DNA from: Legionella donaldsonii
Lineage (GTDB): Bacteria; Pseudomonadota; Gammaproteobacteria; Legionellales; Legionellaceae
DNA: 64,000 nt
Reading direction: 5' to 3'
Assembly (NCBI RefSeq): GCF_900452385.1
Contig: NZ_UGOA01000001.1
Coordinates: 481,501-545,500 of the forward strand
Under the pieces are notes generated by a model. The model ran no database searches. It saw only the letters and a list, made by a program, of their open reading frames with translations, and was not told the origin of the DNA. The position numbers and the translations under genes are program-made. Shown here piece after piece: positions 28,132 through 53,856 of this stretch (positions are counted from its first letter, which is position 1; every line of letters begins with the position of its first letter).

Positions 28132-28286
28132 TATCAAAACTCCCAAATTCTCAAGCAAAAATCCCCTTAAGTATACTTCTCTAAAAGTTAAAAAATAGAG
28201 AAACGTGAAGCATTAAAGCCAGCCCCTATGTTCGCCGCTGAGTTCTCTCTTGAGGATGGACTTCTCAACTTGGTCTAAATTTGAGC

Positions 28287-28319
28287 TATTATTAAAAAAA
28301 TACCTTCTTTGCTATAGGA
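28287..28319 (+). promoter_or_regulatory. Conserved upstream block of double-glycine peptide B
   Basis: TATTAT-TAAAAAAATACC-TTCTTTGCTATAGGA immediately before the peptide gene. The same block, with small changes, precedes peptide C at 53824-53856 on the minus strand (TATGAT-TAAAAAATACC-TTTCTTTTTATAGGA). The first hexamer could be a -10 box, and AGGA is the ribosome site. No good -35 is seen. Confidence 0.6.
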
Positions 28320-52556: not shown

Positions 52557-52694
52557 CCGCAAACAGCCTCCTTTTTGAAAACTAACAGCCATCCATCTTT
52601 TCATTTTTTTTACAAAGTTTACAAATCAGTTGCATTCATTCCTTAATCATTCCTGGTTATTATGTAAAGGATTTTTACTAAATAGGAGTTGATA

Positions 52695-53387
52695 ATGGGT
52701 CTGTTGAAAACTGCAAAAGAAGGTTTAAACAGTTTATTAGGCGGTGCTAAAGTTACGCTCGACGAAACTTCAAGCGGCCTAAAAAGTTCCGTTGAAAGTT
52801 TTATTGGTGATATCGTAATTAGAAGCACTTTCAATCGCGCAAAAACTGGTATTTTAAGTATCTTGAGTGAAGACAGTCCTTCTCCTGCAAGGCTTGCGAA
52901 AAAATCAGAACCTACTACTGATGCTCTTCCCACGGTCCCTGCTGTAACAAGCAGTAATGATTTAATGGCCAGGTTAATGGGTAATTTCTCTGAGCCCTTA
53001 GCACAAGCTGCCAAAAAAATGGCTGTGCAATTTGATGACACGCTTACCAATGTAGGTGATGAGATCACCAGGGGTTTAAAGCGTACCATTAAATCAAAGG
53101 TTGAAAGCATTCAAGCGGATGATGTAGTGAATGGTCTTTCCCAATTCCTTAACGGTTCTTTACAAAAATTGAGCGGGGAAGAAGGGGTTCAAGATAAAAA
53201 AGAAGGTGAAAATTCAACGTTCAATCTCAATGGAACTATCCAAATGTTTGGATGGGTCTTAATGTCTGTCGGAACGTTGTTGCTGGCTGGCGGCTTAAAT
53301 CAGGGAATTTTAAACCCCGCACCTGTTCAACCTGTACCCGTTCAACCTGAACCCGTTCAAGAAGAAGCGCCAAGATTCTCCTGCTAA
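52695..53387 (+). CDS. 230-residue helical protein with one C-terminal membrane segment
   Basis: Helical, low-hydrophobicity N-terminal part with SSGLKSSVESFIGDI and a DDTLTNVGDEITRGLKRTIK segment. A single membrane helix (MFGWVLMSVGTLLLAGGL) near residue 195 is followed by a Pro/Val/Gln tail of PVQP-type repeats (QPVPVQPEPVQEEAPRFSC) ending in Cys. This looks like a C-terminal anchor with a short tail. No recognised family. The ATG at 52695 has AGGAG six bases upstream; a TTG two codons earlier overlaps that site. Candidate effector or envelope protein; not assigned. Confidence 0.8.
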   Translation: MGLLKTAKEGLNSLLGGAKVTLDETSSGLKSSVESFIGDIVIRSTFNRAKTGILSILSEDSPSPARLAKKSEPTTDALPTVPAVTSSNDLMARLMGNFSEPLAQAAKKMAVQFDDTLTNVGDEITRGLKRTIKSKVESIQADDVVNGLSQFLNGSLQKLSGEEGVQDKKEGENSTFNLNGTIQMFGWVLMSVGTLLLAGGLNQGILNPAPVQPVPVQPEPVQEEAPRFSC

Positions 53388-53647: not shown

Positions 53648-53815
53648 TCATTCCTTCCTATTCTTTTTATGCTCATCGAAGAAACGTATAATATCATCTG
53701 GATCAAGTTTAAGGTCGGGAAACCGTTGTGTGCCTCCGGAAATATTCTTTAAATCCTCTTTTTTTACAGTTTCTTTATTTCTATTTTTTGAAGGTTGTTT
53801 TGAAGACTTTTTCAT
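53648..53815 (-). CDS. Double-glycine leader peptide, bacteriocin-like precursor C
   Basis: 55 residues, too short for ordinary gene finders. Leader of 28 residues starting MKKSSKQPSKN and ending KKEDLKNISGG; core of 27 residues starting TQRFPDLKLDPDD, ending DEHKKNRKE. No Cys. The leader is about two-thirds identical to that of peptide B, while the cores differ apart from a DL-DPDD-R-NR-type pattern. The 5' block (53824-53856) is also shared with peptide B. The ribosome site AGGA is nine bases upstream. It lies near an ABC exporter operon, but that exporter lacks a C39 peptidase and is divergent from the gene between them. Confidence 0.8.
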   Translation of the reverse strand: MKKSSKQPSKNRNKETVKKEDLKNISGGTQRFPDLKLDPDDIIRFFDEHKKNRKE

Positions 53816-53823
53816 GATGTTGT

Positions 53824-53856
53824 CCTATAAAAAGAAAGGTATTTTTTAATCATAGT
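53824..53856 (-). promoter_or_regulatory. Conserved upstream block of double-glycine peptide C
   Basis: On the minus strand CTATGATTAAAAAATACC then TTTCTTTTTATAGGA. Matches the block before peptide B at 28287-28319 with few changes over about 33 bases, including the TAT(T/G)AT hexamer at its start and TATAGGA at its end. Confidence 0.6.

Follow-up and report, generated by a model that had tools for sequence, protein, structure and literature searches.

The 64,000-nucleotide stretch of Legionella donaldsonii DNA analysed here (the window) carries on its minus strand a 55-codon frame whose product, peptide C, reads MKKSSKQPSKNRNKETVKKEDLKNISGG followed by TQRFPDLKLDPDDIIRFFDEHKKNRKE, i.e., a leader ending in Gly-Gly and the core expected to be the mature peptide. 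An earlier note, made from the letters of the window, had described this frame as a double-glycine leader peptide resembling peptide B, and had placed both with a third precursor, peptide A, in a larger dispersed family served by one distant exporter. The frame and its B-like leader were confirmed (the leaders of B and C are 77% identical), and the last 40 bases upstream of the two genes align almost throughout, with small gaps; the cores, compared as DNA, gave no convincing alignment. Our results indicate that C is very probably a genuine precursor, belonging to a family of scattered genes, which are under purifying selection, mostly share a promoter element, and occur together with a complete exporter of the NHLM/NHLP type (Table 1). 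No NCBIfam match was found for C, no NCBIfam family scored above cut-off for C or B, no Pfam family did so for A, B, or C, and the curated bacteriocin families (TIGR01847, TIGR03949, and ComC) gave sub-threshold matches only, to B, A, and one exporter-adjacent peptide, leaving a set of candidate secreted-peptide genes without an over-threshold match in the curated family libraries scanned.

Table 1. Features of the peptide C, B, and A genes, in coordinates of the window (G006, L. feeleii; the leader profile is that of nine L. donaldsonii peptides).
Feature	Position	Strand	Basis
Peptide C precursor, 55 aa	53648-53815	minus	Open reading frame listing; leader-profile match, E 2.4e-12 (C is one of the profile's own rows); G006 ortholog with core changes
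C leader, 28 aa, DLKNISGG at end	53732-53815	minus	Leader alignment and position counts (L at -7, I/L/V/M at -12, GG at -2/-1)
C core, 27 aa (TQRFPDLKLDPDDIIRFFDEHKKNRKE), expected mature peptide	53651-53731	minus	Comes after GG; grouped with B by single linkage
Putative sigma-S-like extended -10 element of C, CTATGATT	53848-53855	minus	Element in most of the family at about -39
C ribosome-binding site, AGGA	53823-53826 (-11 to -8 from ATG)	minus	Direct reading
Peptide B precursor, 58 aa	28327-28503	plus	Search with C, leader profile, ortholog
Putative -10-like element of B, CTATTATT	28286-28293	plus	Upstream element search
Peptide A precursor, 52 aa	19296-19454	minus	Leader profile, ortholog; no CTATDVT element found upstream

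The larger family was found readily in the window's own genome (G000, 3.6 Mb). A search with peptide C gave six matches, C itself included, and a profile built from nine leaders of G000 (A1) gave 13, nine of which are the profile's own rows, at 0.50, 0.51, 0.54, 1.04, 1.23, 2.18, 2.73, 2.81, 2.82, 2.88 (two), 3.24, and 3.30 Mb. The genome-wide scan for [ED]L..[IV][SA]GG that had been proposed in the earlier note, carried out as a degenerate DNA pattern that makes no use of the leader profile, returned 13 hits vs. one for the reversed pattern, and these comprised nine family members, two precursors of another class, and two that were neither; an outcome without further copies or a peptidase-containing exporter, which the note had named as refuting, is not what was obtained. 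Among 112 Legionellaceae genomes, profile A1 gave 127 leader matches. Five of these were left out, four lying in open frames of at least 117 aa and one in an 878-aa frame; a regular expression classed 10 of the other 122 as graspetide-type, and without them 112 precursors in 17 genomes were kept, seven of these genomes holding nine to thirteen different precursors each. Double-glycine leaders as a rule carry hydrophobic residues at -4, -7, and -12 before the Gly-Gly, and such residues stand there in 97%, 100%, and 100%, respectively, of the 102 unique leaders, a set that was itself chosen by the leader profile; leader lengths run from 22 to 32 residues. When a broader profile (A2) was searched against 321 genomes of the class, matches occurred only in G000, G008, and one stop-broken frame, and since A2 was itself built with rows of G000, G008, and further genomes of the family, the informative part of this result is the absence elsewhere.

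The family is under selection. In ten ortholog pairs between G000 and its close relative L. feeleii (G006), three of the 13 members being unable to enter the comparison, the pooled ratio of non-synonymous to synonymous change (dN/dS) was 0.20 for leaders (25 non-synonymous and 28 synonymous differences) and 0.27 for cores (30.5 and 30.5), with rough Fisher tests on site counts giving P values of 3e-8 and 2e-6, respectively. Both leader and core are under purifying selection over these pairs, with variation from pair to pair, the cores of B and of the 1.23-Mb peptide having 10 non-synonymous changes each. For C alone, the pair differs by no changes in the leader and by three non-synonymous and two synonymous changes in the core, too few for judging selection.

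Upstream of the genes, a common element was seen in a non-redundant set of 89 members. A search from -60 to -15 found the motif CTATDVT in 60 of the 89 (10 of the 13 in G000) compared to nine of 89 control genes, the controls having been taken from G000 only with uncurated ATG starts, and CTAYNNTTA was found in 39 members vs. three controls. The looser CTAYNNT stands upstream of 72 members, with a median distance of 39 bases to the start, and the profile around it is roughly TTTGAACTAT(A/G)CTTAAA, in a logo that was aligned on CTAYNNT and has those positions fixed by construction. Shuffled upstream sequence gave the element in a mean of 4.5 of 86 cases. It resembles the sigma-S -10 consensus, KCTAYRCTTAA, which is credited to Weber 2005 in the available text of PMC5650638, suggesting that the family may be under sigma-S control. 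Since this sigma-S-like element is common upstream of the family, the conserved block that the earlier note had seen before B and C can be read as a promoter plus transcript start. That block is present exactly in B (TATTATTAAAAAAATACC, 28287-28304), and the C version is one base shorter (TATGATTAAAAAATACC), for which reason an ungapped search with three mismatches missed it. As a family tag the block failed, since the ungapped search of the window found B and one unrelated site and not C, and a related 16-mer gave 17 genome hits vs. 18 for its reversed control.

An exporter containing a C39 peptidase was located 2.3 Mb from C in contig coordinates. The Pfam C39 model gave five matches in G000, four above cut-off, and two of the five fall in one three-gene set (G000:C1, 2.811-2.817 Mb) that encodes an ATP-binding cassette (ABC) protein with the C39 peptidase (TIGR03796, 909.6 bits vs. 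a cut-off of 853.3), a second ABC protein (TIGR03797, 780.8 vs. 709.4), and an HlyD-like adaptor (TIGR03794, 273.2 vs. 156.2). In its C39 domain, Cys24, His97, and a following Asp are present where C39 peptidases have such residues. The exporter is flanked by family members in G000 and G006, and has at least one beside it in G022, G066, G075, G089, and G115 (three in G115); one member lies upstream of the HlyD gene by 93 bases (same strand) in G000 and G006, and by 87 in G022, G075, and G089. When 20-kb exporter stretches of seven Legionella loci (one from L. jamestowniensis) were scanned, such peptides were found at four (L026, L028, L029, and L030) and not at the other three (L027, L031, and L032). 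TolC-type proteins gave 10 matches in G000, three of them above cut-off. The nitrile-hydratase-like leader model of the class, TIGR03793, had no match in G000 at E 0.1, and among 22 genomes of the genus none scored above cut-off and five had weaker matches.

Family and exporter also co-occur across genomes, in the test that the earlier note had suggested. TIGR03796 scored above cut-off in 16 of the 112 Legionellaceae genomes, matched more weakly (E 1e-150 or better) in 19, and was absent from 77; with these and the leader counts taken as the same draw, and with all 127 leader matches used, at least two leader matches were present in 12/16, 3/19, and 0/77 genomes, respectively (12/16 vs. 0/77, Fisher P = 4e-12, shared ancestry ignored; 11/15 without G000). 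The threshold of E 1e-150 is close to the score of the graspetide exporter of G000 (1e-143), so that a graspetide exporter may be all that some of the 19 weaker genomes contain. Single leader matches occurred in eight of the 77 genomes without a TIGR03796 match, of which six were of the graspetide class, one lay in a 229-aa frame, and one (G086) was member-like. Loci of G098, G103, and G108 (L123, L126, L127, and L208-L215) hold more divergent members, which form a branch of their own within the family and several of which end in a Lys-rich tail; the TIGR03796 match of these genomes is below cut-off.

The cores differ in kind. Single linkage placed 87 of the 112 precursors in 24 core groups of at least two and left 25 single; six groups are G000-G006 pairs only, and others extend over four to nine genomes. 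One group, with 21 sequences from nine genomes, contains both B and C, and many of its members have a run like DPDEIRRILDER or DEIERLIRQGIK. The 71 non-redundant cores contain 11.2% Pro and 11.4% Arg, compared to a background of 4.3% each (2.6 times), and at least 20% Pro is reached by 13 of them, vs. 0.4% of 25-residue background windows. Mean hydropathy is negative in all 71 and Cys is present in 10. The cores would be closer to soluble, extended peptides than to pore formers.

Taken together, the scattered family, its shared promoter, and export and trimming by an NHLM-type exporter make up one reading, to which we give a probability of roughly 0.7. C would give rise to a small secreted peptide: the C39 domain of the exporter at 2.811-2.817 Mb would recognise the 28-residue leader and cut after Gly-Gly, and the 27-residue core would leave through the ABC transporter, the HlyD adaptor, and a TolC-type channel. 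With at least 13 chromosomally scattered precursors and one exporter, a cocktail of different peptides would result, hydrophilic and often Pro/Arg-rich, most of them lacking Cys and probably carrying no modification. Release would probably occur when growth slows, a timing proposed because the sigma-S-like -10 element is shared by most members. Several points weigh against this. The strict form of the element, CTAYRMTTAA, is found in only 17 of the 89 members (one of 89 controls), and three of the 13 G000 members, A included, are without the element in the form tested. Four of the 16 genomes with an over-cut-off exporter (G031, G037, G063, and G072) have fewer than two leader matches, and neither the co-occurrence test nor the selection test takes shared ancestry into account. 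The cores are without the hydrophobic, Gly-rich look that class II microcins have, and the most Pro/Arg-rich core of G000 had no match among Protein Data Bank (PDB) chains of at least 20 residues, a further PDB search for relatives giving seven weak matches only (best E 0.22). Finally, no immunity partner was recognised: in a survey of 841 open reading frames (ORFs) of at least 60 aa within 1.6 kb of the 112 genes, no neighbour family recurred at more than two of the 13 G000 loci, all 49 neighbour clusters with at least three loci being covered, and those at two loci were generic ABC proteins or reflected the pair of members separated by 1.2 kb.

The exporter is of a known type. The earlier note had proposed an undescribed secretion system, which does not hold, as the NHLM/NHLP class was described in 2010, together with precursors that have long leaders and are encoded far from the export genes (PMC2887384, available text), and NHLP-type exporters named LB2SS and LB3SS were reported in 9 and 11 of 45 Legionella species in 2020 (PMC6959600, available text). 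As in that class, all three exporter proteins are present, each above its cut-off, a genome encodes several paralogous precursors at a distance from the exporter, and the cores after Gly-Gly vary. The present system differs in that the leaders have 22-32 residues, whereas the average Gly-Gly position is given as 83 for NHLP and 70 for N11P peptides (PMC2887384, same portion), in that no modification enzyme was recognised beside the exporter, and in the shared sigma-S-like element. LB2SS, which has two ABC proteins at one locus, and LB3SS are NHLP-type exporters of the same genus, and the exporter here may be one of the two; the portion of PMC6959600 available to us names exporters and no substrates, and no report of LB2SS or LB3SS substrates was found in the open-licence literature, so the family supplies candidate substrates for an exporter class named in Legionella without any in that portion. 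Bacteriocin clusters of Legionella have also been listed by antiSMASH (PMC5126622, available text). No description of the peptide family was recognised in the open-licence literature, and these dispersed substrates of a known class of exporter appear to be new, as do their short leader and shared promoter element. The leader profile and this element make the family listable in any genome, and its products, timing, and targets testable.

Precursors of class II bacteriocins and microcins (TIGR01847, TIGR03949, and ComC) have the same leader length, hydrophobic residues at -4, -7, and -12, and Gly-Gly at the cut; here, in contrast, the cores are hydrophilic and often Pro/Arg-rich, and the genes are scattered without a recurrent immunity neighbour of at least 60 aa. 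Prochlorosins likewise combine a single type of leader with a wide variety of cores, and many are unlinked; unlike the C family, they have Nif11-type leaders and lanthionine modification by ProcM-type enzymes. Our best guess at what the cores do, held at somewhat less than even odds, is that they act on neighbouring microbes as an atypical bacteriocin-like mixture. Animal proline-rich antimicrobial peptides are short and rich in Pro and Arg, and some cores, e.g., HHERPIQLPRPPRPHIPREE, are like them by eye; against this likeness, no PDB match supports it and 13 of the 71 cores reach 20% Pro. It is conceivable and rather improbable that in some Legionella species about a dozen unlinked and unmodified peptides, many of them Pro/Arg-rich, leave by one NHLM exporter as a cocktail timed to the growth phase, part of which would act inside target cells, as proline-rich antimicrobial peptides do, and not by pores.

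The same export route could instead carry signals or peptides directed at protozoan hosts, which we consider somewhat unlikely. The lack of a recurrent immunity neighbour is in keeping with such a role, as are the purifying selection on cores over the ten pairs and the recurrence of some core types across species, and the post-exponential stage is a setting that a sigma-S-like element would fit. However, nine to thirteen precursors in each of seven genomes are many for a signal set, and no receptor-like family recurs nearby. Less probable still, the cores might be modified by an enzyme encoded elsewhere, as in ribosomally synthesized and post-translationally modified peptides, before export by the NHLM system. 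Ser, Thr, Asp, and Lys are available in the cores, and NHLM exporters elsewhere are tied to modified NHLP and Nif11 peptides (PMC2887384, available text), but 61 of the 71 non-redundant cores have no Cys, and no maturation enzyme was recognised on reading the ORFs of the 20-kb exporter stretch, a genome-wide enzyme search not having been made.

A second strong C39 exporter at ~0.70 Mb (G000:C1, ~696-703 kb; L014, 4289-11286) is accompanied by an HlyD-like adaptor, two ATP-grasp maturase-like genes (sub-cut-off matches of MvdC/MvdD type), and two short precursors; from these maturase-like genes and the different leader class, the locus looks like a separate graspetide system. That this exporter (at 701 kb) serves the leaders of the C family is very improbable: leaders at the locus also end in E-L-x-x-V-S-G-G, but its two precursors carry a different leader class, CTATDVT was absent from 10/10 precursors of that class from related genomes, and genomes such as G001, G015, and G034 have the graspetide leader class and no match of the C family. 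Lastly, decaying or chance ORFs that merely resemble leaders, to which short frames between unrelated genes and the few changes in C alone might point, are largely ruled out by pooled dN/dS values well below 1 in leader and core and by a promoter element that had no part in choosing the set, the one match outside G000 and G008 among the 321 genomes of the class being a frame with a stop.

With respect to neighbouring genes, a carboxymuconolactone decarboxylase-like gene adjoins C. Linkage of C to its neighbours was considered and ruled out, since this gene is present in two of 22 genomes of the genus (E 1e-30) and little gene order is shared: when the window was compared to 12 family-member loci from six genomes, shared order was seen in two, both of G006, and the remaining ten gave only a weak match to an ABC protein (27%) and a match of 46% to a gene at 63 kb. 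Plasmid carriage was likewise rejected, a search for it giving no match. One gene, which we take to be UmuC-like, is found next to peptide genes or close to them at 10 loci in eight genomes (L154, L160, L188, L176, L198, and L204, and the exporter loci of G022, G066, G075, and G089), and these peptide genes belong to different core groups. Two TolC-family genes of G000 with identical scores lie 9 kb apart (G000:C1:2093881-2095092 and 2102937-2104148) and are likely a recent duplication. Also beside C, a 232-aa ORF without a Pfam family above cut-off (52689-53387, plus strand) is 97% identical in G006 and has a hydrophobic stretch near its end. Unlike most family cores in G000, those of A and of a peptide at L013 (12669-12902, minus strand) have two Cys, which might indicate a disulfide or a modification.
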